Shown: piece by piece, positions 2,394 through 55,820 of the stretch
Numbering within the stretch: the stretch's first letter is position 1
Layout: each line of letters starts with the position of its first letter
Assembly (NCBI GenBank): GCA_016219175.1
Contig: JACRCD010000076.1
Span: 62,001-126,000, forward strand
Reading direction: 5' to 3'
From: Deltaproteobacteria bacterium
GTDB taxonomy: Bacteria; Desulfobacterota; Desulfobulbia; Desulfobulbales; SURF-16
DNA length: 64,000 nucleotides
Made by a program: the position numbers and the translations under genes
Notes under the pieces: model-generated
What the model was told of the DNA's origin: nothing
The model's input: the letters and a program-made list of their open reading frames with translations, nothing else
Database searches by the model: none

Positions 2394-2480
2394 GGTGCGC
2401 AACGGCCGTTTGTTGCGCACGCGGGATGCAACGGAAACACCACCCAAAACCCCGTGGGCACGATAAAGCCGTGCCCACCC
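2394..2480. repeat. Pair of REP palindromes (type B then type A)
   Basis: Type B: GTGCGCAA at 2395-2402 pairs with TTGCGCAC at 2413-2420. Type A: GTGGGCACG at 2454-2462 pairs with CGTGCCCAC at 2470-2478 around the loop ATAAAGC. The same two palindrome types recur at 3.1, 15.6, 21.3 and 35.2 kb. Here they stand just upstream of a REP-associated transposase gene. Confidence 0.85.
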
Positions 2481-2533
2481 TTGCTGCCTGGGCAATGACG
2501 GCAATGAAAACATTACATAAATCTTGGTGAACC

Positions 2534-3083
2534 ATGTCTCGATACCGGCGCGACCGCACCCCCGGCGCCACCTGGTTTTTCACGGTGGTGACCTGTAACC
2601 GGCAACCTGTCCTGTGCGATGAACCGGTTCGGTACGCCTTGCGGGAGGCTATCGCCCAAACCCGCGAACCACCCCTTTATCATTGACGCCTGGATTCTTC
2701 TGCCCGATCATCTGCACTGCATCTGGACCCTGCCGGCCGGGGATGTTGATTTCGCCACCCGCTGGAATCTGATCAAACGGAGGACCAGCAAGAGGGTAAA
2801 GGACGGCTATTTCACGCCCGCATTGATGACCGCGGCAAAATCATCCCGCCGGGAGCTGACCTTCTGGCAACGCCGCTACTGGGAACACCGCATTCGCGAC
2901 GAGGATGATTTTAAACACCACGTTGAATACATCCATTACAATCCGGTCAAGCACGGCCATGGCTCCGCGCCTTCGGATTGGCGATATTCGAGTTTTCACC
3001 GTTATGTGGAGAATGGCATATATCCGTCCGGTTGGGGCAGCGGGGGACCGATCCGGTTACCGGCCGACATCGGCCACGAGTAA
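2534..3083 (+). pseudogene. REP-associated tyrosine transposase (RAYT, IS200-like Y1), frameshifted
   Basis: Starting at ATG 2534 the frame reads MSRYRRDRTPGATWFFTVV, a typical RAYT N-terminus, but ends at TGA 2684-2686 after 50 codons. The rest of the family sequence continues in another frame from about 2667 (NHPFIIDAWILLPDHLHCIW). That part includes the HxH catalytic motif (DHLHC) and later YIHYNPVKHG, which carries the nucleophilic tyrosine region. One extra base, or two lost bases, near 2666 accounts for the break. RAYTs are single-domain HUH enzymes that mobilise REP palindromes, and REPs flank this gene on both sides, so family and function agree. It is either a genuine recent pseudogene or a sequencing indel. 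The downstream part can also be read as a 154-aa open frame from ATG 2619. Confidence 0.85.
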
Positions 3084-3087
3084 ATCC

Positions 3088-3220
3088 CGGTGGGCACGAT
3101 AAAGCCGGAATGACGATCGGGCGTAGGGTGCGCAACGGTTGTTTTGTTGCGCACGCGGAATGCAATGGATGAATCACCGCGCCAAACCCGGTGGGCACGA
3201 TAAAGCCGTGTCCACCCTAC
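3088..3220. repeat. REP cluster downstream of the RAYT gene
   Basis: Three REP pieces occur here: a truncated type A half (GTGGGCACGATAAAGCCGG) at about 3092-3110; a type B palindrome, GTGCGCAAC at 3128-3136 with GTTGCGCAC at 3146-3154; and a type A palindrome, GTGGGCACG at 3191-3199 with CGTGTCCAC at 3207-3215 (one mismatch). Together with the upstream pair they frame the transposase gene. Confidence 0.85.
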
Positions 3221-3240
3221 GCGACCATCAACCATCCCCC

Positions 3241-6167: not shown

Positions 6168-6788
6168 ATGACGGTAACCATTGCCAAGCCGGTCACGGAC
6201 CTGAACTTTGACGAGCTGCTGGAACAGTCCACCCGCATCCACGGCCACATCTGCGCGGGCCAGGTGATCGGGGTCAGGATGTCCATGGTGGGCCTGCGGG
6301 AGATCGGCATCACCGATCCCAAGGGCAGCCAGCGCAAGAGTCTGTATGTGCTGGTGGAGATCGACCGCTGCGCCACCGACGCCATCCAGTCCGTCACCGG
6401 CTGCTCACTCGGCAAGCGTTCCCTCAAATGGCTCGACTACGGCATCATGGCCGCCACCTTTGTCAACCTGGCCACCTCCAAGGCGGTGCGGGTCACGGCC
6501 CTGGAGGAAGCCCGCGAGCTGGCCAAAAAATACAGCCCCGGTATCGAGGATAAGTACAGACAGCAGCTTGAGGCCTACCGCGTCATGCCCGAGGAGGAAC
6601 TGTTTAAAATCGAACGGGTGACCCTTACCGTTCCGCCATGCGATATGCCGGGCCGGCCCATGAAGCGGGTGCAGTGCCAGGGGTGCGGGGACTGGGTGCA
6701 GGACTGCCGCGAGGTGGAAAAGGATGGCCGGATTCTCTGCCGGAGCTGCGCCCACGGACGGTATTACAGTACGGGTTCCAGCGTTTGA
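6168..6788 (+). CDS. FmdE family protein with C-terminal zinc ribbon
   Basis: This 206-aa protein matches the FmdE (formylmethanofuran dehydrogenase subunit E) family: HGHICAGQVIGVRM near residue 25 gives the conserved His/Cys pair, followed by DRCATDAIQSVTGC. A four-cysteine zinc ribbon lies near the C-terminus (CQGCGDW, then CRSC). FmdE-family proteins are widespread outside methanogens and are thought to be linked to molybdenum/tungsten enzymes, but a precise reaction is not settled. It lies four bases after a cyclophilin and about 80 bases before a molybdopterin-binding protein on the same strand, which supports a role in molybdoenzyme (perhaps formate dehydrogenase) maturation. That role is inference. 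The stop codon sits in the start of an 8-bp array. Confidence 0.88.
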   Translation: MTVTIAKPVTDLNFDELLEQSTRIHGHICAGQVIGVRMSMVGLREIGITDPKGSQRKSLYVLVEIDRCATDAIQSVTGCSLGKRSLKWLDYGIMAATFVNLATSKAVRVTALEEARELAKKYSPGIEDKYRQQLEAYRVMPEEELFKIERVTLTVPPCDMPGRPMKRVQCQGCGDWVQDCREVEKDGRILCRSCAHGRYYSTGSSV

Positions 6789-6840
6789 ACGTTTAAGCGA
6801 TCAAGCGTTGGATCGTTTAAGCGTTGGAACGTTTGATCGT
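6785..6840. repeat. 8-bp-period degenerate tandem array at the fmdE-like stop codon
   Basis: Seven 8-base units run in line: TTGAACGT, TTAAGCGA, TCAAGCGT, TGGATCGT, TTAAGCGT, TGGAACGT, TTGATCGT. The first unit contains the TGA stop of the preceding gene. A closely similar array (GTTCAAGC units) lies at 11372-11435. Confidence 0.75.
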
Positions 6841-6867
6841 TGAAACATTTATTCGGAAAACAAACCT

Positions 6868-7911: not shown

Positions 7912-8115
7912 ATTGGTCTTGTTTGTCTTATTGGTCCTATTAGCCGGATTAGCTGGACCAGTCGAAATGATGGATTCCGGCTAGCAACATGCCGGAATGA
8001 CGGCAGGGCAATTTCGCAACCGGACAACGCTGCATCAGCCCGCTCGGACCAATCGGACCAGTCAGACCAACCAGACTAATCAGACCAGTAAGACCAGTAA
8101 GACCAATCAGACTAT
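7912..8115. repeat. Paired 9-bp-period arrays, inverted to each other
   Basis: Starting right after the preceding stop codon, five units read ATTGGTCTT, GTTTGTCTT, ATTGGTCCT, ATTAGCCGG, ATTAGCTGG (7912-7956). After about 85 bases, eight units of the approximate reverse complement run from 8044 to 8115 (TCGGACCAA, TCGGACCAG, TCAGACCAA, CCAGACTAA, TCAGACCAG, TAAGACCAG, TAAGACCAA, TCAGACTAT). The two halves could fold into a long hairpin between two convergent genes. A closely similar pair lies at 13431-13583. Confidence 0.8.
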
Positions 8116-9197
8116 TGAATAACCATCCAGCAGCGCATGGCCAGCCGGCCGGTTTTTTTATCCTTACCGCTGATCGTCACCCTGTTGATATGGCTCGACA
8201 GACCTTTGTCATTGTCAATAAAGATGGTACTCCCCTCAAGTTTGGCCCGCTGCCAGCCCAAGCCGGTCACGTAAATCCCCAGGGATTCCCGCTCGTATCT
8301 GTCCGGGTACAGAAGCGTGGCACCGAACCGTTTCACCCGGCCGTCCGCCAGGGGGGCCAGGTCCGGCTGTCTGGCGCTGATCGGCATATCCAGGTGGTTC
8401 AGCACCTCGGCAAAATGACTCATGGTGCTCCACTCCTTGCCGAGAATGGGCTCTCTCGGCATCAAAAACGGATCCGTATCCGCACTGATTACCCCGGGGT
8501 CCTGACTCATGATGGCCTCATAGCCCAGCCCCTTGATCTCCTGCAGGACAACGGAGTTGTACTCGCCATAGGGAATGGAAAATATCCTCGGTTTGTAGCC
8601 GAGCTTCTTGGCCAGCAGCTCCGACCCTTTTTGCAGATCAGCGCGAATCCAGGCCCGGTAAGCAGCGTCATCAAGCCCCTTGGGCCTGTCCGTCAGGCGG
8701 TAATGGGAGTAAGAGTGGTCCTGGAAATCAACCCCGGCCTGTTGCAGCTCCCGCGCCTGATCCCAGGTCATGTAGGCGGAGGTGTTGCCGTCAATGCCGT
8801 TCACCGTGGGGAATATGGTAAAAGGATAACCAAAGGACTTCAGTATCGGCCACGCCTTGTCGTAGATGCTGCGGAAGCCGTCATCAATGGTGATGACCAC
8901 GGCTTTTTCCGGCAGGGGTGTTTTATTTTTGATCGAAGCGACCAGATCGGTCAGGGGGATGACCTGGTAGTGGTTATTTTTAAGATAGTCCAGCTGCTCC
9001 CGGAATCGCTCCGGGCTGACATTGGTGGAGGGATATTTTGTCTCGCCGAAACGGTGATAGATCAGCACCGTGGCCCCGGCGCCATCAGCCGGCGCACCTT
9101 GGCCGGCAACAAGGCAGGCAGGGAAAACAAGAGCAAGAAAGAAGATGAAGTTTAATACACAACATCCCGGAATAATGCTCTTTTTACATCTTGACAT
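8112..9197 (-). CDS. Exported polysaccharide deacetylase (NodB family, PgaB-like)
   Basis: The mature enzyme follows a signal peptide (FIFFLALVFPACLVAG). It has the NodB motifs: VVITIDDGFRS (catalytic Asp-Asp), DHSYSH (metal-binding His pair) and FSIPYGEYN. These are carbohydrate-esterase family 4 marks; members such as PgaB deacetylate poly-N-acetylglucosamine in the periplasm. About 360 residues. I take ATG 9197 (MSRCKKSII) as the start because longer frames run far into the upstream gene and lack a signal peptide at the N-terminus. It overlaps the end of the upstream glucosaminidase gene by 14 bases, so the two are an operon acting on cell-envelope glycans. The exact polysaccharide is unknown. 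Confidence 0.87.
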   Translation of the reverse strand: MSRCKKSIIPGCCVLNFIFFLALVFPACLVAGQGAPADGAGATVLIYHRFGETKYPSTNVSPERFREQLDYLKNNHYQVIPLTDLVASIKNKTPLPEKAVVITIDDGFRSIYDKAWPILKSFGYPFTIFPTVNGIDGNTSAYMTWDQARELQQAGVDFQDHSYSHYRLTDRPKGLDDAAYRAWIRADLQKGSELLAKKLGYKPRIFSIPYGEYNSVVLQEIKGLGYEAIMSQDPGVISADTDPFLMPREPILGKEWSTMSHFAEVLNHLDMPISARQPDLAPLADGRVKRFGATLLYPDRYERESLGIYVTGLGWQRAKLEGSTIFIDNDKGLSSHINRVTISGKDKKTGRLAMRCWMVIQ

Positions 9198-10755: not shown

Positions 10756-11370
10756 ATGATTTACCGACTGCTTGTTTTTTTTCTGCTGCTCAGTCAGCCC
10801 CTGTTCGCCCAGGCGGCGGATGCACCCGCCCTTGCCCCCGCGCCGGCGGCGCCCGCCGCCTCGGCCGGCAAGGGAAGGATTGTCATGGAGACCACCATGG
10901 GCACCATCAAAATCGAGCTTTTTGACGACAAGGCCCCTATCACCTGCAAAAATTTCCGCCGGTACGTCTTTGAGGGATTTTTCAACGGCCTCATCTTCCA
11001 CCGGGTCATTCCCGGCTTTGTCATCCAGGGCGGCGGTTTTGAACCGGGCATGAAACAGAAGCCCACCCACGAACCCATTGTCAATGAGGCGGACAACGGT
11101 CTGAAAAACACCAGGGGCACCCTGTCCATGGCCCGCACCCAGGACATTTACAGCGCCACCAGCCAGTTCTTCATCAACGTGGTGGACAACAAGTCCCTTG
11201 ATCACCGGGGAAAAACACCGGCCGGTTTCGGCTATGCCGTTTTCGCCAAGGTTGTTGAAGGCATGGAAGTTGCCGACAAGATCGTCGCCACGCCCACCGG
11301 CCAGAAGGGTTTTTACCAGGATGTGCCCAAAACGGACATGGTGATGCTTAAGGTGTACGAGGAGAAGTAG
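10756..11370 (+). CDS. Exported cyclophilin-type peptidyl-prolyl isomerase
   Basis: This 204-aa protein starts with a signal peptide (LLVFFLLLSQPLFAQAA), then an Ala/Pro-rich spacer, then a cyclophilin domain with FHRVIPGFVIQGGGF (catalytic Arg), GTLSMART, SATSQFFINVVDN and GYAVFAKVVEGM. It therefore folds proteins in the periplasm. GGGAGGAAAGAT precedes ATG 10756, a strong ribosome-binding site that rules out a longer start at 10687. No close partner gene is present: an 8-bp array begins after the stop and the next gene is convergent. Confidence 0.95.
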   Translation: MIYRLLVFFLLLSQPLFAQAADAPALAPAPAAPAASAGKGRIVMETTMGTIKIELFDDKAPITCKNFRRYVFEGFFNGLIFHRVIPGFVIQGGGFEPGMKQKPTHEPIVNEADNGLKNTRGTLSMARTQDIYSATSQFFINVVDNKSLDHRGKTPAGFGYAVFAKVVEGMEVADKIVATPTGQKGFYQDVPKTDMVMLKVYEEK

Positions 11371-11371
11371 C

Positions 11372-11435
11372 GTTTCAGCGCTTGAGCGATCCAGCGTTCA
11401 AGCGTTCAAGCGTTCAAGCGTTGGAACGTTCCAAC
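11372..11435. repeat. 8-bp-period tandem array between convergent genes
   Basis: Eight 8-base units follow the cyclophilin stop codon: GTTTCAGC, GCTTGAGC, GATCCAGC, GTTCAAGC three times, GTTGGAAC, GTTCCAAC. It ends one base before the stop codon of the convergent topoisomerase gene. The array resembles the one at 6785-6840. Its last two units form a local palindrome (TTGGAACGTTCCAA). Confidence 0.8.
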
Positions 11436-11436
11436 G

Positions 11437-13422
11437 CTACTTCTTCCCCTCGTCAAACAGGGACAGGATCTTCGGGTCCTGCCCCTCTTCCTCTTTCTTT
11501 TCCTTCATCTCATCTATCCTGCGCACGACCCGGCTCGACACCCGCTTGCCCCTGGCCACCGACCCCTTGATGAGAAATTCGTCGAAACAGAAATCCTCAT
11601 AATTTTTCTTGGCCCTTTTGGACGGCCTGAGGTGGATGCGCACCTTGCTCCCCTCGCCCAGGGAAAGAAACATGATGCGGGATCGCGCGTGCGTGGGGAA
11701 AAGATGATACTCCTTTTCCAGAATGAATTTGGGACAATGAAAACGCTTGATATAGCAGAGGTCTTCTTCCCCATCCAGATAGATGGCGTTGAACACCTGC
11801 TTTTCATCAACCCTGCCCACCCAGTAAAGATCAGGGCCGACAAAAACCTTGTCGGCCACATGAATCACCTTGTAGACCCCGTTTCTGAAAATCAGCAGCA
11901 GCTTGTCGTATTCCGAGCAGGCAAAGAAGCGGTCACAGTCGGTCTTGACCTGATGGCCCAGGAAACCGCTCTCCCGATGATAGCCCACGGTGAGATTGGA
12001 CAGGGCCACGTCCCGGGCCTCAACCTCGGAAAAGGTGGTGATTTCCGTGCAGCGCGGGTAAAGATGGCCATAGGTGGCAAGCAGTTTGTCAAGGTAGCGC
12101 AGGCTGAAGGCGACCATGTCCCGCAGATCCTTTTCCACCTGCCGCATGCGGTCCTGCACCTCTTTGATTTCCTTAAGTTTTTTATCGATGTCATAGCGGG
12201 AGATGCGGCGGATGCGGATCTCAAGCAGCCGCTCGATGTCGTCTTTGCTGACGTCGCGCAGCAATCTGTCCCGGAAAGGGGCCAGGGCCTCGGCCACCGC
12301 GCTGACCACCAGCTTGTAACTGGTGCATTCCTCGATTTTTTTATAGAGCCGCTCCTCGATGAAAATCTGCTCCAGCAGATGGGCGTGCAGTTTTTCCCGC
12401 AAACGGTCCAGCTCGATGGTCAGCTCTGTTTCCAGATCACGCTTGAGCTTGGCCGTGTTGTTGATGAGCAGCTCGGAAAGCGGGATGTTGACCGGCCTGT
12501 TGTCGCGGATGGCCGTCAGATTGGGGCTGATGGGCACCTCGCAGTCCGAGAAGGCGTAGAGCGCCCGGATAGTATCCTCGGCGTAAATGCCGCGGGCCAG
12601 CTTGATCTCGATCTCCACCTCTTCGGCGGTATAATCGTTGATGGAAACGATCTTGATCTTGCCCTGTTTGGCCGCCTTCTCGATGCTTTCCATGAGCGAC
12701 AGGGTAGTGGTGGTGTAGGGGATCTCTTTAATCAGGATGGTCTTGTCGTTTTTTTCGACAATTTTCGCCCGGCACCTGATCTTGCCGTTGCCGTCGTTAT
12801 AGCCCGTGACATCCATGAGCCCGCCCTGGGGAAAATCAGGGAAAAGCTCAAAGGATTCGCCGCGCAAAATCTTTTTCTGGGCCTCGATGAGTTCGCGGAA
12901 ATTATGGGGCATGATCTTGGTGGCCATGCCCACGGCGATACCGTCCGCGCCCTGCAGCAGCAGGAGCGGCAGTTTGGCGGGCAAGGTAACGGGCTCCTGC
13001 ATGCGGCCGTCATAGGAATCGGCGAACTCGGTCAGATCCTTGTTGAACAGGATCTCCCTGGCCAGCGGGGTGAGGCGGCACTCGATATAACGGGCCGCCG
13101 ACGGGCCGTCGCCGGTGAAGATGTTGCCGAAGTTGCCCTGGCGTTCGATGAGATAGCCCTTGTTGGCCAGATTGACCAGGGCCCCGAAGATGGACTGGTC
13201 GCCGTGGGGATGGAGTTTCATGGTCTCGCCCACCACGTTGGCCACCTTGTTGAAGCGGCCGTCATCCATGTTGAACAGGGTCTGCATGATGCGGCGCTGC
13301 ACGGGCTTGAGGCCGTCGGTCACATCGGGGATGGCGCGCTCCTTGATGACGTAGGAGGTGTAGTCCAGGAAATTCTCGTCAAAGAGCTTATGCAGGGAGC
13401 CGTATTCGGTCAGGGTTTCCAT
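11437..13422 (-). CDS. parC: DNA topoisomerase IV subunit A
   Basis: This 661-aa type IIA topoisomerase breakage-reunion subunit has the GDQSIFGALVNLAN region after HPH and the catalytic tyrosine Tyr112 preceded by Arg111 (GPSAARYIE). The N-terminal winged-helix (LKPVQRRIMQTLFN), tower and coiled-coil regions follow. The C-terminal beta-pinwheel is short and ends in a Lys/Glu-rich tail (RIDEMKEKKEEEGQ). The length is nearer the shorter ParC-like forms than GyrA (over 800 aa), and it sits directly downstream of a ParE/GyrB-type gene, so topoisomerase IV (chromosome decatenation) is the better call. The two genes are separated by about 156 bases filled by a 9-bp repeat array. Confidence 0.9.
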   Translation of the reverse strand: METLTEYGSLHKLFDENFLDYTSYVIKERAIPDVTDGLKPVQRRIMQTLFNMDDGRFNKVANVVGETMKLHPHGDQSIFGALVNLANKGYLIERQGNFGNIFTGDGPSAARYIECRLTPLAREILFNKDLTEFADSYDGRMQEPVTLPAKLPLLLLQGADGIAVGMATKIMPHNFRELIEAQKKILRGESFELFPDFPQGGLMDVTGYNDGNGKIRCRAKIVEKNDKTILIKEIPYTTTTLSLMESIEKAAKQGKIKIVSINDYTAEEVEIEIKLARGIYAEDTIRALYAFSDCEVPISPNLTAIRDNRPVNIPLSELLINNTAKLKRDLETELTIELDRLREKLHAHLLEQIFIEERLYKKIEECTSYKLVVSAVAEALAPFRDRLLRDVSKDDIERLLEIRIRRISRYDIDKKLKEIKEVQDRMRQVEKDLRDMVAFSLRYLDKLLATYGHLYPRCTEITTFSEVEARDVALSNLTVGYHRESGFLGHQVKTDCDRFFACSEYDKLLLIFRNGVYKVIHVADKVFVGPDLYWVGRVDEKQVFNAIYLDGEEDLCYIKRFHCPKFILEKEYHLFPTHARSRIMFLSLGEGSKVRIHLRPSKRAKKNYEDFCFDEFLIKGSVARGKRVSSRVVRRIDEMKEKKEEEGQDPKILSLFDEGKK

Positions 13423-13430
13423 ATATTTTG

Positions 13431-13583
13431 TCCAATTAGTCCGATTGGTCTTATTGGTCTTATTGGTCTTATTGGTCTTATTGGTCTTATTGGTCCGACT
13501 GTCAGACCAGTCAGACCAGTTAGACCAGTTAGACCAGTTAGACCAGGCAGACCAGTTAGACCAGTCAGACCAGTCAGACTAAA
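13431..13583. repeat. Two inverted 9-bp arrays between parE and parC
   Basis: Five exact copies of ATTGGTCTT run from 13444 to 13488, with variant units on each side. From 13503 to 13574 eight copies of the near-complementary unit YAGACCAGT follow (one with final G). The halves could pair into a long imperfect hairpin in the parE-parC transcript. The array reaches the last codons of parE. The same arrangement, more degenerate, is at 7912-8115. Confidence 0.85.
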
Positions 13584-15408
13584 CAAGATAATTCATGATG
13601 TACTCTTTGCGCACCGGGGTATTCTTCCCCATGTAAAAGGAGAGGAGCTTCGGCACGTCGCTTAGCCGGTCGATGTTGACCTGCTGCAGCCGGATATTGT
13701 CGCCGATGAACTGCTTGAACTCCCGGGGGGATATCTCGCCCAGCCCCTTGAAGCGGGTAATCTCAACCTGGCTGTCACCCTTGCCCCTGCCTTTTAATTC
13801 CTTTTCCGCCAGCTCTTTTTCCTTTTCCGAATAACAGTATCTGGTTTCCTTTTTGTTGCGCACCCGGAAAAGGGGGGTCTCCAGGATATAGACATGGCCC
13901 CTTTTCACCAGGTTTTCAAAATAGGTGAGAAAGAAGGTGAGCAGCAGGTTTCTGATGTGCAGCCCGTCCACGTCGGCGTCGGTGGCCAGGATCACCTTGT
14001 CGTAGCGGAGCCCGCCCACCGACTCTTCGATGTTCAAGGCCCGCATCATGTTGTACATCTCCTCGTTTTTGTAGAGCAGCGCCATGGACTGGCCGTAGAC
14101 ATTCATCGGCTTACCCTTCAGGGAAAAGACGGCCTGGGTCATGGGATCACGGGAGCTGACAATGGAGCCCGAGGCGGACTGGCCCTCGGTGATGAAAACC
14201 ATGTTCTCGCGGCCCGGCTGGGATGGGTTCTCCTTGGTGGGGTGGTACTTGCAATCCTTGAGCTGGGGCACGCGGATGGCCACCTTCTTGGCCTTGGCCT
14301 TGGCCTCGGTGCGCACATGCTGCAGCTCCTTGCGCACCCTCTCGTTCTGCTGGATCTTGTCGATCAGCACCTCGGCCACTTCTTTTTCCTTGTAGAGGTA
14401 GTCGCAGACAAAATCCTTGACCCGGTTGACGATGGTCCCCCGTATCTCCGTGTTGCCCAGCTTGTTTTTGGTCTGGGACTCGAAGATGGGGTCCTTGATC
14501 TTCACCGCCACCGTGCCGACAATACCCTCCCGCACGTCGTCGCCGGAAAATTTTTTACCGGTAAACTCGTTGACTCCTTTGAGTATCCCCTCCCGGAAGG
14601 CGGAAAGATGGGTGCCGCCTTCGTTGGTATAGGTGCCGTTGACAAAGGAAAAATAGTTTTCGCCGTAACCCTCCGTATGGCAGAAGGCAAATTCCAGGGT
14701 TTCGTCCTTATGGTACAGGGGCTGGTAAAGCCGTCCTTCATCAATCTCGTTATCAAGCAGGTCGAGCAGGCCGTTGGCGGAAAAAAAACATTCCTTATCC
14801 AGGTAAAGTTTGAGACCGGCGTTGAGGTAGGCATAACGCCACAGCCTTTTTCTGACAAAATCGAGATTGAAGACAAATTCCTCGAAATGGTTCCGGTTGG
14901 GCACGAACTCGACCAGGGTGCCGTTCTTTTCCGCGCTCTCCCCTTCCTCCTGCTCTTGCAGGATGCCTTCGGCAAAAGTCGCCCTGGCGAATCTGCCCTC
15001 CCGGTAAGAGGTGACGGTGAAGTCTTCGGACAGGGCATTGACGGCCTTGGTGCCGACCCCGTTTAGGCCCACTGAAAACTGAAAGACATCGGTATTGTAT
15101 TTGGCGCCGGTGTTGATGACCGAAACGCACTCCACCAGCTTGCCGAGCGGGATGCCGCGCCCGAAATCACGAATCCTGACCCGGGTCGTCTCCCCCTCGA
15201 TAATGGTGATCATGACCTTCTTGCCCGCCCCCATGATGAATTCGTCAACGGCGTTATCGATGACCTCTTTAAGCAGGATATAGATGCCGTCATCGGGATG
15301 GGAACCGTTGCCGAGCCGGCCGATATACATACCCGGACGGAGACGGATATGCTCAAGCGAACTTAAGGTTTTTATTTTTGATTCATCGTAAGCGGCTGTT
15401 GCGGACAT
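13579..15408 (-). CDS. parE: DNA topoisomerase IV subunit B
   Basis: This 609-aa ATPase subunit has the GHKL motif VIDNAVDEF, the G2 box RIRDFGRGIP, a G-x-x-G-like segment (GLNGVGTKAVNAL), and the Toprim part with TEGQSASGS (catalytic Glu) and LATDADVDGLHI (Mg-binding DxDxDG). The C-terminus carries RFKGLGEI and the PRxFKQF segment typical of ParE/GyrB. It is shorter than GyrB of many proteobacteria (about 800 aa). It provides ATP-driven strand passage together with ParC encoded just downstream. The start is ATG 15408 (MSATAAYDES). Confidence 0.92.
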   Translation of the reverse strand: MSATAAYDESKIKTLSSLEHIRLRPGMYIGRLGNGSHPDDGIYILLKEVIDNAVDEFIMGAGKKVMITIIEGETTRVRIRDFGRGIPLGKLVECVSVINTGAKYNTDVFQFSVGLNGVGTKAVNALSEDFTVTSYREGRFARATFAEGILQEQEEGESAEKNGTLVEFVPNRNHFEEFVFNLDFVRKRLWRYAYLNAGLKLYLDKECFFSANGLLDLLDNEIDEGRLYQPLYHKDETLEFAFCHTEGYGENYFSFVNGTYTNEGGTHLSAFREGILKGVNEFTGKKFSGDDVREGIVGTVAVKIKDPIFESQTKNKLGNTEIRGTIVNRVKDFVCDYLYKEKEVAEVLIDKIQQNERVRKELQHVRTEAKAKAKKVAIRVPQLKDCKYHPTKENPSQPGRENMVFITEGQSASGSIVSSRDPMTQAVFSLKGKPMNVYGQSMALLYKNEEMYNMMRALNIEESVGGLRYDKVILATDADVDGLHIRNLLLTFFLTYFENLVKRGHVYILETPLFRVRNKKETRYCYSEKEKELAEKELKGRGKGDSQVEITRFKGLGEISPREFKQFIGDNIRLQQVNIDRLSDVPKLLSFYMGKNTPVRKEYIMNYLV

Positions 15409-15592: not shown

Positions 15593-15757
15593 GACTAATA
15601 GACTATTAAACTATTAGGCTATTAGGCGTTAGTCACCGCGTGCGCAACAAAACACCCGTTGCGCCACCCTACGCGTTGCCCTTGGAAAATGTCGTTATTC
15701 CGCTTGATTATGGCGGGATGGCGTAGGGTGGGCACGGCCTCATCGTGCCCACCGGGA
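15593..15757. repeat. 8-bp array followed by two REP palindromes
   Basis: The 419-base gap 15409-15827 holds no convincing gene. At 15593-15632 lie five 8-base units (GACTAATA, GACTATTA, AACTATTA, GGCTATTA, GGCGTTAG). A type B REP follows at 15638-15674 (GCGTGCGCAAC paired with GTTGCGCCACC), and a type A REP at 15728-15752 (GTGGGCACG with CGTGCCCAC). Promoters for the divergent parE and pepF genes must also lie here, but I cannot place them reliably. Confidence 0.75.
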
Positions 15758-15827
15758 TTGGCGTGGCGTTACAACCGGGCTCGTCACCGCGATCGACCAC
15801 CAACATATAAAGAAAGGACTTGTTATC

Positions 15828-21230: not shown

Positions 21231-21253
21231 AAACGAAGAAGAGAGAAGCGAAG

Positions 21254-21462
21254 GGTGGGCACGTCTTTATCGTGCCCACCTGGGATGTCCTGTCGGGAAA
21301 GGGTTCCCGACATGCGACTCCTGTAACGCGGCGGTGTCCCTCCCCGCGTGCGCAACAAAACAGCCGTTGCGCACCCTACCCTGCTGCCCTTGGAAAATGT
21401 TGTTATTCCGAAGTGTTACGGTGGCCTGCGTAGGGTGGGCACGGCTTTATCGTGCCCACCGG
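21254..21462. repeat. REP cluster (A-B-A)
   Basis: Type A: GTGGGCACG at 21255-21263 with CGTGCCCAC at 21271-21279. Type B: GCGTGCGCAAC at about 21346-21356 with GTTGCGCACCC at 21366-21376. Type A again: GTGGGCACG at 21435-21443 with CGTGCCCAC at 21451-21459. They fill the 270 bases between convergent genes and may stabilise both transcripts. Confidence 0.85.
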
Positions 21463-21501
21463 CATTCGTTGCGCACCCGCCTTCTGCCTTCGCCCTTCCA
21501 A

Positions 21502-23968: not shown

Positions 23969-24793
23969 GTGTCGAAAAAGAAAAAACATAGTCCCCTGCC
24001 CGTTCTGGCCGAAGGCTCCATCCTGGTTGACACCCATTGTCATCTTGACATGCTCGCTGACGGCGGAAGGGATGCCGGACAGGTCATTGACCGGGCCTTT
24101 GCCGCCGGGGTGCGGTCCATCATTACCATCGGCATTGACATACAGACCTCCCGGCGGGCGCTGGAGTTCGCCAAAAAAAATTCCGGGGTTTTCGCCGCTG
24201 TCGGGGTGCATCCCCACCATGCCGGGGAAGTAAACGGCAAGACCCTGGCCGAGCTGAAAGAAATGGCTCGGGATGAGCGGGTGGTCGCCTATGGCGAAAT
24301 CGGCATCGACACAGTCAAGGACCATGCCCCCCTTGTTGTCCAGGAAAAGGCCTTTATCAGCCAGCTGTTGCTGGCCCGAGAACTTGGGCTGCCGGTTGTT
24401 GTTCATAACAGGGAGGCCCATGCCGAGATTCATGGGCTGCTCAAACAGCACGGCCCCTTGCCGGCGGGCGGGGTCATCCATTGTTTTTCAGGCGACGGAG
24501 AGATGGCCCTGAAATTTGTCGAACTGGGATTTTATATCTCCATCCCCGGCGTGGTGACCTTTAACAAGGCGGAAATGCTGCAGGAGGCCGTGCGCGCCGT
24601 TCCCTTAAGCGCCCTCCTTATTGAGACGGACGCCCCGTTTCTGGCCCCCGTCCCCTTCCGGGGAAAAACCAATGAGCCGGCTTACTCCCTCTATACGGCC
24701 CAGAAAATCGCCGAATTAAAGGGTTTAAGCCTTGATGAGGTTGCCAGGGCCACCACGGCCAACGCCGCCAAGCTCTTCGGCATATCCGTTTAG
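23969..24793 (+). CDS. TatD family metal-dependent hydrolase (DNase)
   Basis: This protein of about 274 aa has the TatD signature set: VDTHCHLD with two metal-binding histidines, VGVHPHHAGEV, VAYGEIGIDTV (bridging Glu), VVHNREAH, GVIHCFSGDGEMA and LIETDAPFLAP (metal-binding Asp). TatD proteins are TIM-barrel amidohydrolase-fold nucleases. Start choice is uncertain: GTG 23969 (VSKKKKHSPLP) has a weak GAG 8-12 bases upstream, whereas a TTG at 23927 adds 14 residues with no family support. The stop codon TAG is shared with the first base of a MITE-like repeat. Confidence 0.9.
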   Translation: MSKKKKHSPLPVLAEGSILVDTHCHLDMLADGGRDAGQVIDRAFAAGVRSIITIGIDIQTSRRALEFAKKNSGVFAAVGVHPHHAGEVNGKTLAELKEMARDERVVAYGEIGIDTVKDHAPLVVQEKAFISQLLLARELGLPVVVHNREAHAEIHGLLKQHGPLPAGGVIHCFSGDGEMALKFVELGFYISIPGVVTFNKAEMLQEAVRAVPLSALLIETDAPFLAPVPFRGKTNEPAYSLYTAQKIAELKGLSLDEVARATTANAAKLFGISV

Positions 24794-24895
24794 GGTCCGT
24801 TATAAAATAACCATTACAGATTTGATATCACCTATACGGCCCCTTATGCCGTTGCCGCGCATGGTGTGTTACAGTAATTTATTGACAACGGCTTA
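24793..24895. mobile_element. MITE-like repeat, copy 1
   Basis: About 103 bases are nearly identical to 42922-43024. The ends are inverted (GGTCCGTTATAAAATAA against TTTATTGACAACGGC), and the interior reads TATACGGCCCCTTATGCCGT. No coding capacity. It starts in the stop codon of tatD and ends about 30 bases before the yggS gene, so it could supply the terminator of the first and promoter parts of the second. Confidence 0.75.
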
Positions 24896-24924
24896 GTCCA
24901 TAATTTTTATTACCCATATCAGCC

Positions 24925-25712: not shown

Positions 25713-25934
25713 TTACTTCATGGTGAGCAGTTTGACAATTTCCCCCTCTTCGGGAAATCGTTTCTGTTCCGCCTTGGAGAAAATTTTCCTTCCATCCAGC
25801 TCCACCTCGAAAACGCCGCCTGAAGCGGCAATCAGCTCCACTTCGGCGCCCAGCCTTTCAACCAGCTCCGCTTCCAGCCTGGAAGCGCGGGGTTTATAGT
25901 TTCATTTTCCACAATAGGTAATCGACACCTTCAT
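25713..25934 (-). CDS. SelW-like (Rdx family) selenoprotein, CxxU motif, UGA at codon 11
   Basis: Read with UGA as selenocysteine, this 73-aa protein begins MKVSITYCGKUNYKPRAS. That is the SelW/SelT/Rdx signature (YCxxUxYxPRA) with the redox CxxU at residues 8-11. It continues with LEAELVERLG, ELIAASGGVFEVELDGRKIFSK, the GGxFEVxxxGxxIFSK segment of the family, and PEEGEIVKLL. The UGA (25902-25904) is followed by an 8-bp hairpin with a three-base loop at SECIS distance. GGAGAGA stands before the ATG. Family members are thioredoxin-fold redox proteins that may interact with peroxiredoxin or glutathione systems. Without UGA read-through the gene is missed because the frame has no other long open part. 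I am confident in family and Sec; the partner is unknown. Confidence 0.93.
25869..25887 (-). promoter_or_regulatory. Bacterial SECIS-like hairpin of the SelW-like gene
   Basis: On the coding strand CGCTTCCA pairs perfectly with TGGAAGCG around a GGC loop. The stem begins 14 bases after the UGA, the distance expected for bacterial SECIS elements recognised by SelB. Confidence 0.8.
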
Positions 25935-26130
25935 ATTCTCTCCTTTTTCCGCTTTTCACTGATTCTCTGTTTGCTGGTACCACAAAACTATGATATTATT
26001 TCAAATAGAGTCTTTCTGGTTGAAATTACTCTTTTTTTCAACAATAATAGAAAAAAATGAAACGGCTCGTACCATTATATATAACGATATGAGCCTGATT
26101 GGTAGAGCATACCTGAAAATTATATTAGGG

Positions 26131-35121: not shown

Positions 35122-35153
35122 CCGAGAAGAGAAAACAGATCGCCAGCTTCAAC

Positions 35154-35188
35154 CGCGTGCGCAACATAACAACCGTTGCGCACCCTAC
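35154..35188. repeat. REP palindrome (type B)
   Basis: GCGTGCGCAAC (35155-35165) and GTTGCGCACCC (35175-35185) form the same type B palindrome as at 2.4, 3.1, 15.6 and 21.3 kb. It lies just after cheZ. Confidence 0.85.
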
Positions 35189-35214
35189 CAAAAAACACCC
35201 GTTACAGCGTGCTA

Positions 35215-35312
35215 AGCCGCTGAAAAAAATAACATGGCCAGTGAATTTACCGGAGCGGCATAAGGAGCCGTAACGGAATGAGTATAATTGGCCATGTTAT
35301 TTCGTAACGGCT
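35215..35312. mobile_element. MITE-like element with 23-bp imperfect inverted ends
   Basis: AGCCGCTGAAAAAAATAACATGGCC at the left (25 bases, summarised) and GGCCATGTTATTTCGTAACGGCT at the right are inverted to each other with few mismatches. The ends resemble the other MITE-like copies (AGCCGTT...AAATAA). The interior is short and non-coding. It sits between cheZ and the convergent EF-hand gene. Confidence 0.65.
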
Positions 35313-42674: not shown

Positions 42675-42921
42675 CTGCTTTTACGTGCTTTTTACTCCTC
42701 TCCATCAGGCTGATTTTGTCAAAAAGCAATACCCGTGCCAGGCAAAAAAAAGTGTACCTCAGCAGGGATCAGCATGGGACAGGCCGGGAAATGGTGGAGG
42801 ATGCGAGGACAAAGGTTAGAATACGTAGAGATGGGGGGAGGGAGGAAAAGGGTGGGACCCAATAAAATATGTCGCATCGAGCAGGACACAGTCCACTTTC
42901 ACCGGACACTTATTGATGATT

Positions 42922-43024
42922 AAGGGCCGTTGTAAAATAACCATTACAGATTTAATCTTGCATATACGGCCCTTTATGCCGTTGCCACGCATGGCGTGTT
43001 ACAGTAATTTATTGACAACGGCTT
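42922..43024. mobile_element. MITE-like repeat, copy 2
   Basis: It is about 90% identical over its length to 24793-24895, with ends GGGCCGTTGTAAAATAA and TTATTGACAACGGC inverted, and the interior TATACGGCCCTTTATGCCG. It occupies part of the 613-base gap 42580-43192, in which I see no gene. The gap also contains the operator-like repeat upstream of the oxidase gene. Confidence 0.78.
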
Positions 43025-43192
43025 AGCAAAAAGCGCCAGGTACCACAATGTAAACTCTCCGCCTGGAGCGGATTTAGGCCTGGATTCAAAAGAGGTGATC
43101 CGGACAACACCTAAAGCTCTTCAGGCGTTTAGACGCGGTTAAGATGGCTGGACGTCTGCGTAAAAAGTGAAAGTTCTCCCTGGCGGCAACAA

Positions 43193-47856: not shown

Positions 47857-48456
47857 TTACAGGCCGGAATTGATCGCCTTGCTCAACTTGGCTGCAAAAA
47901 CCTCGGCCAGATGGGCGTCACTGTAATCATTATCCTTGCGCAACGATTTGGTAGTAGTGCCAAAGGTCATGCGCAGCTTCTGGCTGTTGACCAAGTCAAG
48001 GGCCTTGTCTATTCTGACTCGCAGCTCTTCGGGCTTTATGCCCTCTGCCTGGCCGAGAGGCCCCAGTTGCCTGATCTTGGCCGTGAATTCCGTAATAAGC
48101 TTGACAAAACGGGGCGCCTCGGCGGCGGAGGCCCACTGCAGATTATAACGTTCCGGATTAATGCCGATTCCTTCCAGAACTTTTTTAACAAGCACATTCA
48201 CTCCCATTGCATCGTAATTACCAACCTGGTAATGGCACTCGCCAAGTTGTCAGCCGCCGGTGAAGATACCGGCCGCCCCTTCGGCAAAGCCCTGCAGAAT
48301 AAAGGAGGGGTCAATGCGTCCGGTACACATGACGCGGATGGTGCGCAGATTCGGCGGATACTGGTAGCGGGAAACACCGGCGGCGTCCGCCGCGGCATAA
48401 CAGCACCAGTTGCAGAGAAACCCCAGAATTTTAGGGTTGAATTCTTCCTTGGTCAT
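47857..48456 (-). CDS. mvhD: MvhD (hydrogenase/Hdr-associated iron-sulfur protein), UGA-encoded selenocysteine at residue 69
   Basis: Read through UGA (48250-48252) this is a 199-aa protein: ILGFLCNWCCYAAADAAGVS, RVMCTGRIDPSFILQGFAEG and GIFTGGUQLGECHYQVGNYD. That is the complete MvhD fold (two Cys pairs, CTGRID, then GC-x-x-GECHY with Sec at the Cys position), then KKVLEGIGINPERYNLQWAS. The C-terminal 60 residues (GIKPEELRVRIDKALDLVNS) are longer than in typical MvhD. MvhD is the [2Fe-2S] electron transfer link that passes electrons from hydrogenase or formate dehydrogenase to HdrA. A 7-bp hairpin follows the UGA. The gene is last in the fdhA-hdrA-mvhD group, 85 bases after hdrA. Confidence 0.93.
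48217..48233 (-). promoter_or_regulatory. Bacterial SECIS-like hairpin of mvhD
   Basis: On the coding strand ATTACCA pairs perfectly with TGGTAAT around a GGT loop. The stem starts 16 bases after the UGA. This is a good match to the bacterial SECIS plan. Confidence 0.8.
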
Positions 48457-48541
48457 TTTCCATGCCTCTATAAATAGCTGTTTAGCAGTTTAGTCTGTAG
48501 GGTTTTAGATGTTTAAAATTATATGGAAGTCTCTTAACAGA

Positions 48542-51500
48542 CTATTGTCCGATTTCGCCAAAGGCCCTGATCTGCGCGCCGATCTGCTCACGGGTGAATC
48601 CGCCCATGGAGATGGCGAAGGTGGGACACCGTGAAGCGCAGATGCCGCAGCCTTTACATGAGGCGGCAATCGTTTCCGCCTTTTTCTTGCCGTCCTCCTG
48701 CTTGACCATGCTGATCGCCTGGTACGGGCACAGGCTGGCGCAGATGCTGCAGCCGATACACATGTCCTTGTCGACATTGGAAACGATCGGCTCGACGGAG
48801 ACACACCCCTTGACCAAGGGGATGGAAGCCTTGGCGGCGGCGGCCTGGGCCTGCACGATGATCTCATCAAGGGGTTTCGGAGAATGGGCCAGACCGCAGA
48901 CATAGACGCCGTCCACCGCCAGTTCCACCGGCCGCAGTTTTACATGGGCTTCCAGATAGAATTTGTTTTCATTAATGGGAATCTTCAGCAACTTGCTCAA
49001 ATTTTCCGTATCCTCCGGCACGATGCCCACACTCAAGACAATCAGTTCCGGACTCAGGGAGATCTCTTCCCGCAGAATGGGATCAAAGAAATTGACATTG
49101 ACCTTGCCGCCTTTCTTTTCCACCTCGGGCTTGTGGTCAACCTCATAGGGAATGAAAACCACCCCTTTCTCCCTGGCCTGCCGGTAGGCATCCTCGCTAT
49201 AGCCGTAGGTGCGCATATCCCGGTACAGGACGATCACCTGGGATTCAGGGTTGATTTCCTTGATCCTCAAGGCATTTTTCACGGCCGTGTTGCAGCAGAC
49301 CTTGCTGCAGTATTTGAGATCATCGCCCCGGGAACCGGCGCACTGGATCATGACCACCGAGTCGGGCGCCCGATCCTTGGCCTTGCCGGCCAACTGGCTT
49401 TCCAGTTCCTTCTGGGTCACAACCTTTTTCACCTGGCCGAGCAGGTACTTATCAGGCCGATGCTCCCTGCCGCCGGTCGCCACAATGACAACGCCATGAT
49501 CGACAGTCAGTTCGCTTTCCTTTTTCCCCTTCACTGTCTTGATGACGGAAGAAAAATTACCGACAAAACCGTTGACCGCCACCAGTTCGGAACCGGTCAT
49601 CACCTCGATTTTCTCATGTGCTTCCACCCGGGAGATCAGCTCTCTCATCATCTTGCCGGTATTTTCACCCTGCAGGGTATCCTGCATATTGGTGGCATGG
49701 CCTCCCACCCTGTCATTTTTTTCGACGAGATAACAGTGGAAACCCTGATTGGCCAGGTTCTCGGCGGCGGTAAGACCGGCGACGCCGCCGCCGATGATCA
49801 GGGCCTGGGGCATGACGGGAACGGTCTGTTCCGGCAGTGGCCTGCTAAGGCGGGCCTTGGCCACCCCCATGCGCACCAGATCCCTGGATTTTCTTGTGGC
49901 CTCTTCCGGCTCATTGGCGTGAACCCAGGAGCATTGATCGCGGATATTGACCATCTCGAAAAGGGAACGATTCAGCCCGGCATCCTTCAGGGTTTCCTGG
50001 AAAAGCGGCTCATGGGTCCTTGGTGAGCAGGCCGCCATGACAATGCGGTTCAACTTGTGCTTCTTGATCTTATCCTTGATGACTTCCTGGGCATCCTGGG
50101 AACAGCTGTAAAGACTGTCGCTGAAAAAGACGACATTTTCCATGTTGCCCGCGTAATCAACAACATTGGGCACATCAACCGTGCTGGCGATATTGATGCC
50201 GCAGCGGCAGACAAAGACGCCGATGCGGACTTCGTCCTCGGAGCCTACCTGCTGCTCTTCCGGATATGACTTATGAACAACACCGGCTCCACGCTGCTGT
50301 TTGATCAGGGCCGAGGCAATGCCGGCCGCGGCGCTGGACTGGGTGACGCTTTCCGGGATGTCTTTCGGCCCCTGAAAGGCGCCGGCGACAAAGACACCAT
50401 CCCTGCTGGTCTTTAACGGAGCAAAGGAATCGGTTTTACAGAATTCGTAGTTATTAAGTTCAATATCAGCGATCCGGGCGAACTCCTTGGCGTTTTTCGG
50501 CGAATCAAGGCCAACGGAAAGGACAACCATGTCAAAGGCTTCGAAATGATGGCTCTCGCCCAGGGTGGAGTAAGTCAGCTTGAGGTTTTTGCCCCAGGGC
50601 ATGACATCGGCAACCCTGGCCCGGACAAACTTGATGCCGAACTGTTCTTCGGCCCGGATGCGGGCCGCATCAAAATCCTTGCCCTGGGTGCGCATGTCCA
50701 TATAGAAAATGGTAATCTCGCAATCAGGATCATGCTCCTTGGCCACCATGGCCTCCTTGATGGCGTACATGCAGCAGACGGAGGAACAGTAACCGTTATT
50801 GCAGCCGATATCCCGCGAACCGACACACTGAATAAAGGCGATCTTATGGGGATGGCGCTTGTCGGACAGACAGCGGACCTCGCCCTGAAATGGCCCGGAG
50901 GGATTGAGCAGCCTTTCAAATTCAATGCTGGTGACAATATCGGGATGCTTGCCGTAATTGTATTTCAGCATGGCCTCCTCCGGGATCTTGCCAAAGCCGG
51001 GGGACAGGATAACAGCGCCTATATGCAGGTTGCGTTCAATGGGTTGCTGGCTGAAATCAATGGCATGACTGCGGCAGACCGGCACACAGATCTTGCATGT
51101 GCCATGCTTCAAATGCAGGCAGGCGTTCGGATCAATAAAATAGGTGGCGGGCACGGCCTGGGGATAATCAATATGAATGGGCCGGGTGATGGCCAGACCT
51201 TCATTGTAGGCATCCACCATATGGCGCGGGCAGTATTTCGTGCAGAGCCCGCAGGCCGTGCATTTGTCCGCATCGATATAACGGGGGTTCAGACGGACCC
51301 TGGCCTGGAAATCACCGGGTTTCCCCTCCAGGGAAAGGAAATCGGCGTTGCTTAATATTTCAATATTGGGAGACCGACCGGCCTCTACCAGCTTCGGCGC
51401 CAGGATTCAGAGCGAACAGTCGTTGGTTGGAAAAGTTTTGTCCAGCTGGGCCATGGCGCCGCCCACAGCCGCTGACTTTTCAACCAGATAAACATAATAG

Positions 51501-51595
51501 CCGAGCTCGGTCAGGTCGAGGGCAGCCTGGACGCCGGCGACACCGCCGCCGACAACCATTACTGCTCCCGATTTATTATCATCCGCGTGACCCAT
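48542..51595 (-). CDS. hdrA: HdrA-like flavoprotein, two-module form, UGA-encoded selenocysteine at residue 63
   Basis: Read through UGA (51407-51409) this is a 1017-aa protein. Module 1 has [20 protein letters not shown] (FAD), the cluster motif NDCSLU (usually NDCSxC) with Sec63 replacing Cys, then ferredoxin cysteines ([11 protein letters not shown]). Module 2 starts near residue 477 with a second FAD motif, [20 protein letters not shown], with VGGHATNM. The C-terminus holds two [4Fe-4S] motifs ([12 protein letters not shown] and [12 protein letters not shown]). HdrA is the flavin-based bifurcation subunit of heterodisulfide reductase complexes; here HdrB/HdrC are absent. With FdhA upstream and MvhD downstream it probably links formate, ferredoxin and NAD(P)H. 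The UGA split makes it look like two ORFs, of which the short one (62 codons) would be missed. Confidence 0.95.
51374..51397 (-). promoter_or_regulatory. SECIS-like hairpin of hdrA
   Basis: On the coding strand CCGA-AG-CTGG-TAGAGG-CCGG-TCGG can fold: outer CCGA/TCGG, inner CTGG/CCGG (one G-T pair), a two-base bulge and a six-base loop. It starts about 9 bases after the UGA. It is weaker than the hairpins of the SelW, FdhA and MvhD genes. Confidence 0.6.
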
Positions 51596-51671
51596 GGTAC
51601 ACTCCGTTTGTGATTTCGTATTACGGTTGCTGGTCTAAAAAAAGACGGCAAGCCAATTAATTAACAGCAAG

Positions 51672-54600
51672 TCAGTTCGGTAAAACATCTACCTTTATGG
51701 CGCACACCTTGTACTCAGGGCTTCTTGACAGCCGGTCAAGGCTATTCAAGGTAAGCAGATTCACCGGCGCCTCGGCAAAATGGTAAGGCACAAAGACGGT
51801 GCCTTCCTGTGACCGTTCGGTGATTTTGGCTCTTATTTTTATCGCCCCCCTGCGGGAGGTCAGCGTAAGCCAGGTCATATCCCTGATATCGAGACGTTTG
51901 GCGTCCTCGGGATTGATCTCGGCAAAGGCCTCCGGGCATATCTCCTCTATTGCCGCGGTTTTGCGGGTCATGCTGCCGAAATTGTACTGGGCGAGCTCAC
52001 GTCCCGTGGTGAGTATCAGAGGATATTCACCGTCAGGAAGTTCATTTGGTCCGGTATAATCCTCGGGCAGAAAAAGCCCCCTGCCCCGCACAAAGGCGCC
52101 GATATGCAGCACCGGGGTGCCGGGATGGCTGCTGTCGGGGCAGGGCCACTGCAGCCCTTCCTTTTCTATCCGGCCATAGCTGATGCCGGCATACTGGGGC
52201 AGGAGCGCGCTGATTTCGGCAAAGACCTTTTCAGCGGAAGGATAGCGCATCATGTAACCCATCTTCTGGGCCAGATCGCAGAAGATCTTCCAGTCCGGCT
52301 TTGCCTCGCCGGGGGGATCGACCGCCTTGCGCACCCGCTGCACCCGACGCTCCGAGCAGGTAAAGGTGCCGTCTTTTTCCGCAAAACAGGCGGCGGGGAG
52401 CACCACATCGGCCATTTTGGCCGTATCGGTCAGGAAGATATCCTGGACCAGCAGAAAATCAAGCTTCTCTATGGCCTTGATGGCATGACCGGCGTTGGGA
52501 TCGGCCAGGACCGGATCCTCACCCATGATATACACGCCCTTGATATTGCCGCCCAGGATGTTATCCCACACCTCGGTCGCGGGTTTTCCCGGCCGGCGCG
52601 GCAGTTTCACCCCCCACATCTCCTCATAGCGGGCAAATACCTCTTCAGCCGTCAGACCGGAATAGCCGGGCAAGGTGTTGAACAGAGCGCCCATATCGCA
52701 GGCCCCCTGCACGTTGTTCTGACCGCGCAGCGGGTTCACGCCGCCGCCGGCCACCCCCAGCTTGCCGCAGAGCATGGCAAGATTGGCGATTGATTTGACA
52801 TTGTCGGTGCCGGCGGCGTAATGGGCCAGACCCATGCCGTAAAAGATAGAGCATTTCTTGCCGGGGCTGGCGTAAAGCCGGGCGACCTGGCGAAGTTGCT
52901 CTTCAGGTACTCCGGTGATCTTGGCCACGTAGGAAGGAGGATATTTTTTGACGATGATCTCAAGGTGTTCAAAATCCTCGGTCCGTTCCTTGACAAATTC
53001 CTTGTCCCATAGATCCTCTTCAAGGATGATATGGCACAGGCAGTTCAGCAGCGCCACATCCGTGCCGGGTTTCAGGCGGAGCCAGTGGTCGGCCCGATAG
53101 GCGAAATCGGTGCCTCGCGGGTCTATGACGATGAGCTTGGCGCCCTTTTCAACCGCCTGATGAAGACGCAGGCCGATGGTCGGGTGACCGGTATCGGCAT
53201 TGGAGCCGATCATCAGGATGACATCGGATTCCCGGATATCGTCAATGGAATTGGTCATTGCCCCGCTGCCGAATGAGATGGCCAGACTGGCCACGGTGGG
53301 AGCGTGTCAGAGCCGGGCGCAGTGATCGATATTGTTGGTGCCGATCACCGTCCGCATGAACTTCTGCATCAGGAAATTTTCTTCGTTGGTCGCCCTGGCG
53401 CAGGAAAAGGCGGCAATGGAATCCGCGCCGTACATGGCCTTCAGATCAAAGAAATTCCTGGCCACCACCTCCAGGGCGTCATCCCAGCTCGTCTCCACCA
53501 GATGGCCATGGCGTCTGACCAGGGGTTTGGTCAGCCGGTCCTTATGGCGGACAAAATCATGGGCAAAGCGGCCCTTGACACACAAGGCGCCGAAATTAGG
53601 GGCCTGGCCGGGATCGGCGGTGACTTCCATGATGGTGTTGCCCTTGACCCTCAGAATAATCTGACAGCCGGCCCCGCAGTAGGGACAGGTCGTACGGACA
53701 TCACGCACCGTCTCATTGATGACCGGCACGAAGGACGCCTTTTTGGTTAGTGAGCCGGTGGGACAATTTTCAGCGCATTTCCCACAGGCAACACACCTGT
53801 CGTTGAAGAGGAGTTTCAGCCCGGAAGCAATATTGTCCTTGTCAACGGCCGCGGCGGTAACTTCCAGGGCGTTATATTCACAGGCATGCATGCAGCGCTG
53901 GCAGAACACACATTTATTGAGATCAACCTTGAGGACGGGATGAGACTCATCCTTTTTGTAAACCGGTTTCTCGCCCATGCCTGTTTTATTGATATTGACG
54001 TTCAAGTCGATATCCAATTTCTTCAACTCACAACGTTCAAAGGCGTTGCAGCCGCAGGAGAGGCAGCGTTCCGCCTCCTTGCGCGCCATCTGCTCATTGA
54101 AGCCGAGCTTGATCACGTCAAAATCCTGCACCGCCGTCTGCGGAGGCCTGGTGGGCATTTTTTCCCGCAATTTGATGTTGATGCCGTCAAAGTTGCTGAG
54201 ATGCACCTGATCAAAGGACTTGCCCCGGCTGAAATTAAACCGGTTTTCCCCGGGATCCTTGGCGACATCCATGACAAATGAATGAATATTGTCAGCCGCC
54301 CTCCTGGCCCCGACCACCGACTGGATGACCGTGCGGGGGCCGGTTGCCACATCACCGGCCGCGTATACCCCGGGCACGGAGGTGGTAAAATCCCTGGGGG
54401 AGGCATTGATCGTGTTGTTGGGTGCAAGTTCAAGCTGTTCCTCAAGTTCCCCGCCGGTAAATCCGTCAGCACATGCCATCTGACCAAGGGAGGAGACAAG
54501 GGTGTCTATACTCATCAGGTTTGTGCTGCCGGGGATGGCTTCGGGCTGACGGCTCCCTCTGGCATCCGGTTCGCCAAGCCTCATCCTGACCAATTCAACA

Positions 54601-55790: not shown

Positions 55791-55820
55791 AGTTTTCCAG
55801 ATAAATACATCATTGTTACA

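Follow-up and report, generated by a model that had tools for sequence, protein, structure and literature searches.

The window, which is the whole 64,000-nt stretch of DNA analyzed here, almost certainly contains a genuine bacterial SelW-like selenoprotein gene in which selenocysteine (Sec) would be inserted at codon 11 in a SelB-dependent manner. The gene, its SECIS element, the Sec machinery of the genome, and the protein family were all identified computationally, and the features of the gene are listed in Table 1. In the proposed mechanism, SelB together with Sec-tRNA(Sec) would bind the hairpin immediately 3' of the UGA, Sec would be inserted at codon 11, and translation would run on to the TAA. 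The product would be a 73-residue thioredoxin-like protein whose first strand ends with the Cys-x-x-Sec redox motif, most likely a small thiol/selenol oxidoreductase with a presumed redox activity and a presumed partner.

Table 1. Features of the selW-like gene, numbered by position in the window.
Feature	Coordinates	Strand	Details
SelW-like (Rdx family) selenoprotein gene	25713..25934	minus	73 codons plus TAA stop; UGA = Sec at codon 11
Selenocysteine codon (codon 11, in-frame UGA)	25902..25904	minus	Column conserved in related loci
Shine-Dalgarno-like AAGGAG	25940..25945	minus	5 nt 5' of ATG; read directly from the sequence
Bacterial SECIS upper hairpin	25869..25887	minus	8-bp stem CGCUUCCA/UGGAAGCG; GGC loop at 25877-25879

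With the UGA read as Sec, the minus strand is translated into MKVSITYCGK-U-NYKPRASRLEAELVERLGAEVELIAASGGVFEVELDGRKIFSKAEQKRFPEEGEIVKLLTMK (73 residues), in which the Cys-x-x-Sec motif is C8-G-K-U11 (CGKU, of the CxxU type). The closest in-frame stop 5' of the ATG is 8 codons away, and the ATG is preceded by a good ribosome-binding site. A plus-strand reading of the same interval (25713-25934) was rejected; its translation shows no SelW-like protein. The gene is on the minus strand. The preliminary description of this DNA had given both ends of the gene exactly and had left the strand unstated; the interval comprises 73 codons plus the TAA. When a second SelW copy was sought in the same genome, the gene itself was alone at a meaningful E-value, the other matches having E-values of 0.53 and 0.79.

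The read-through protein matched the Pfam family Rdx (PF10262) over residues 2 to 70 with an E-value of 7.9e-21 (74.5 bits versus a cut-off of 22.6), the NCBIfam SelT/SelW/SelH (seleno)protein equivalog NF041051 with 101.7 bits versus a cut-off of 88 when the UGA was read through, and TIGR02174 with 63.4 bits versus a cut-off of 34.2. The profile matches span nearly the entire models and support membership in the SelW/Rdx family, in agreement with the preliminary description, which had assigned the 73-residue protein to this family with the UGA as Sec. The same description had called the gene unannotatable, which holds in that ordinary ORF callers would miss or shorten it and is too strong because the curated NF041051 profile finds it above the cut-off when the UGA is read. 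Both motif columns (C8 and U11) do not vary across 19 sequences in which U was represented by C, and a fold model from 19 sequences reached a pLDDT of 90.4 and a pTM of 0.76. The predicted fold is thioredoxin-like, as in SelW structures. Bacterial SelW-related crystals came first among the structure matches (2fa8, 2obk, 2p0g, and others; TM up to 0.92), followed by MIEN1 and mouse SelW. All 23 PDB chains with E <= 0.001 are bacterial SelW-related proteins, MIEN1, or mouse SelW, some of the bacterial chains being titled by accession only and called SelW-related here by their sequence match. The bacterial structures 2fa8, 2obk, 2p0g, 2ojl, 2oka, and 3dex share fold and family with the window protein, are longer (103 to 108 residues as deposited versus 73 here), and presumably carry Cys instead of Sec. 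Mouse SelW (2npb) belongs to the same fold family with a weaker match (sequence E-value of 0.04 and fold TM of 0.70).

In total, 42 of 297 genomes sampled from the phylum contained the NF041051 family at E <= 0.001. A UGA was crossed in 39 of the 42 family matches, including that of the window's own genome, and one of the 39 (G112) also crossed a TAG; no stop was crossed in the other 3. A scan of GTDB contigs added 29 loci, with near relatives coming from Desulfobulbaceae and Desulfocapsa contigs, so that the host probably belongs to this group. The comparison used 59 loci, 30 from the phylum sample and 29 from the GTDB contigs, with the window copy among the 59. The Sec column was reached in 58 of them; one (L083) was left out because its alignment stopped short of that column. 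The partner Cys is present in all 58 placed loci. The Sec column is TGA in 57 of them, which cross it in frame, where the preliminary description had considered that homologues might avoid the UGA, and is TGC in one (L081). Four loci (L081 and L084 to L086) are of the Cys form. The Cys-form genome G092 has TGT at the Sec column, and the same TGT is found in two other Cys-form loci. One SelW relative (L052) has an in-frame TAG 14 codons past the UGA column; it may be a broken gene or an assembly error and was retained in the counts.

The window gene was also compared with ten related loci picked by hand from the 58. Downstream of the UGA, third-codon-position differences exceed those at the first or second position in all ten comparisons, and dN is 0.17 to 0.36, with dS of 1.2 to 4.0 in eight pairs and inestimable in two. 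To judge from these substitutions, the frame 3' of the UGA is under purifying selection. These data bear on the possibility that the gene is a SelW pseudogene, its former Cys codon having become a stop and its product being limited to a 10-residue peptide. Translation with table 11 does end at codon 11, as a pseudogene would have it. However, the UGA is common to nearly all placed loci, purifying selection persists below it, compensatory synonymous changes keep the hairpin, and the genome has the complete Sec machinery (see below). Because the UGA is conserved and dN is far below dS downstream, the pseudogene explanation is regarded as refuted, with a negligible residual probability, and the reading of the UGA as Sec is supported.

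Bacterial SECIS criteria, as worded in the consulted excerpt of a 2026 review (PMC13188914), comprise an apical loop of 3 to 9 nt, an upper stem of 4 to 16 bp, a G in the first two loop positions, a spacing of 16 to 37 nt, and a minimum free energy of -7.5 or below. The window hairpin has a loop of 3 nt (GGC) at a spacing of 22 nt from the UGA, a stem of 8 bp, and a folding energy of -14.5 kcal/mol, all within these ranges. The eight pairs are perfect, as the preliminary description had read them, and its suggestion that the hairpin is SECIS-like is borne out by the fit to the published bacterial model, which supports the identification as a SECIS element. Of the 2,377 TGA triplets in the window, counted over both strands, only 2 are followed at SECIS spacing by a perfect Watson-Crick stem of at least 8 bp with a 3-nt loop that has G in its first two positions. 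An Rfam scan of the window gave no matches, so the SECIS is not called by Rfam. The folding energy of the 54-nt fold is ordinary (z = -1.03; 28 of 200 shuffles fold equally well or better), and the energy of this single hairpin was rejected as proof of a SECIS. The strong case for the hairpin lies in its conservation and compensatory change, not in its energy.

The best stem contains the spacing-22 loop in 51 of the 57 UGA loci; a different stem is best in the other six (L030, L036, L039, L043, L046, and L082). Five of the 57 loci were removed as identical 45-mers, which left 52 distinct 45-nt sequences for covariation analysis. Each of the inner pairs from 20-34 to 25-29 shows standard pairing in 49 to 52 of the 52 sequences. 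The outer pairs of the window stem, 18-36 and 19-35, are unconserved (17 and 19 of 52, respectively), and the shared element is therefore a 6-bp stem, which is extended in the window copy. In pair 21-33, the third base of an Ala codon faces the third base of a Glu, Ala, or Gly codon, both being wobble positions, and the pair is Watson-Crick (U-A, C-G, or G-C) in 48 of the 52 sequences. None of 2,000 amino-acid-preserving shuffles, which ignore shared ancestry, reached this number (mean, 26.7; maximum, 37). Among the 91 wobble pairs in the stretch, only 21-33 behaves in this way, ranking first in both mutual information and Watson-Crick excess. Where the amino acids are fixed as Ala and Glu (n = 25), the pair is U-A in 13 sequences, C-G in 11, and U-G in 1. 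Base composition could explain part of the 21-33 signal, since GC3 in the rest of the gene is 0.61 in the C-G group versus 0.46 in the U-A group, with widely overlapping ranges. These comparisons clearly point to a hairpin that is selected as RNA and kept by synonymous compensatory changes, which offer a clean, reusable demonstration of RNA-level selection on a hairpin.

The same data weigh on a second alternative, in which conservation of the protein sequence (RASRLE) yields the hairpin as a by-product, no SECIS exists, and the UGA is read otherwise. The hairpin codons do lie within a conserved protein stretch, the single-sequence energy is unexceptional, and two of the four Cys-form loci, the GC-rich L081 and L084, also fold stably at this place, but with another loop. 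Against this, wobble positions 21 and 33 covary with the amino acids fixed, and the computed folds of all four Cys-form loci lack a hairpin at spacing 22 whose loop is GGN or GUN. We consider the by-product explanation very improbable, only slightly less so than a pseudogene, and prefer the SECIS element.

The stem may also leave a trace in the protein. Stem pair 22-32 is U-A in 25 and G-C in 22 of the 52 distinct sequences, and residues 18 and 21 seem to change in concert, Ser occurring with Glu and Ala with Ala. A tentative reading, which we find plausible yet somewhat doubtful, is that protein evolution in the SelW-like family is guided by the SECIS stem, the two residues changing jointly because pair 22-32 must be U-A or G-C. 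If true, RNA pairing, not protein function, would impose part of the protein covariation.

All four of selA, selB, selC, and selD are present in the genome above their cut-offs, so that the absence of Sec machinery, which the preliminary description had named as an argument against the gene, does not apply. The tRNA-Sec scored 68.9 bits versus a cut-off of 47 and was called by ARAGORN as tRNA-SeC with anticodon tca, and SelA, SelB, and SelD scored 619, 364.9, and 375.6 versus cut-offs of 268, 242, and 125, respectively. The SelD frame (L018, G000:C88:161448-162374) crosses one UGA, and SelD is therefore probably a selenoprotein itself. Among 44 genomes hand-picked from the 297, SelA is present in 27 of 27 UGA-form, 2 of 3 Cys-form, and 14 of 14 family-free genomes; the sole SelA-free genome is G092, a Cys-form genome. 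This pattern is consistent with the Sec reading but small. It is weak evidence alone and was weighed low instead of being taken as proof, because SelA also occurs in every sampled genome without the gene.

SelW-like proteins have long been described in bacteria. According to excerpts of a 2005 study of Sargasso Sea data (PMC1088965), they were the most abundant bacterial selenoprotein family there, carried a CxxU motif and bacterial SECIS elements, and were suggested to have a redox role. A 2006 survey (PMC1794560, in the portion consulted) lists 12 selenoproteins for Desulfotalea psychrophila, one of them SelW-like, and describes Cys forms as few or absent in Sec-using organisms. An excerpt of a 2015 epsilonproteobacterial study (PMC4607533) states that genome annotation completely missed SelW genes, and the 2026 review, as excerpted, includes a SELENOW-like protein with PF10262 and CxxU along with the SECIS model (PMC13188914). 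The SECIS of the window gene lies inside the coding sequence, whereas eukaryotic SECIS elements are located in the 3' UTR (PMC1088965, in the same excerpts). No paper linking SelW, Desulfobacter, and UGA came up in a literature search. The window gene has the same CxxU in the N-terminal region and the same immediately downstream SECIS as the known SelW-like bacterial selenoproteins (PF10262, NF041051, and TIGR02174), from which it shows no substantive difference, being a relative carried by a different genome. As an ordinary member, it adds one well-supported case to this long-known family, and the general picture of selenoproteins is unchanged. It also confirms that recoded genes can be spotted from raw sequence, as was done in the preliminary description.

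The gene is convergent with a neighboring YggS-like gene and is flanked on the opposite side by a PilZ-like gene, a short gene with no name, and a ParA-like gene, the names being putative assignments from the translations. In L055, L062, and L026, the selW relative likewise has YggS, PilZ-like, and ParA-like genes nearby, and YggS is found near it in L031, L032, and L045 as well. A 107-nt direct repeat with 90% identity occurs at 24790-24896, between a TatD-like gene and the YggS-like gene, and at 42920-43026.

Elsewhere in the window, three adjoining genes on the minus strand (47857-55820) each contain one in-frame UGA (48252, 51409, and 53309) followed by a SECIS-like stem. They comprise an FlpD/MvhD-like gene (PF02662), an HdrA-like gene (best match, NF040770) in which the UGA falls at CSL-U, and a gene for a GltD-like protein fused to a formate dehydrogenase alpha chain (TIGR01591, 843 bits) with the UGA before HAPT. 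The three resemble a known kind of Hdr/Fdh cluster that contains Sec. Dispersed, partly inverted, mostly intergenic repeats of about 35 to 70 nt lie at 2409-3222, 15633-15776, 21248-21466, and 35150-35219; they have the forms GCGTAGGGTGGGCACG..CGTGCCCACC and CGCGTGCGCAACAAAACA..GTTGCGCACCCTAC with palindromic halves and resemble a family of mobile intergenic repeats. Tandem arrays of short units are of two kinds, one with units of 9 nt such as CAGACCAGT and the other with units of 8 nt such as AGCGTTCA, and occur in two places each (8026-8121 and 13484-13597; 6775-6857 and 11364-11446).
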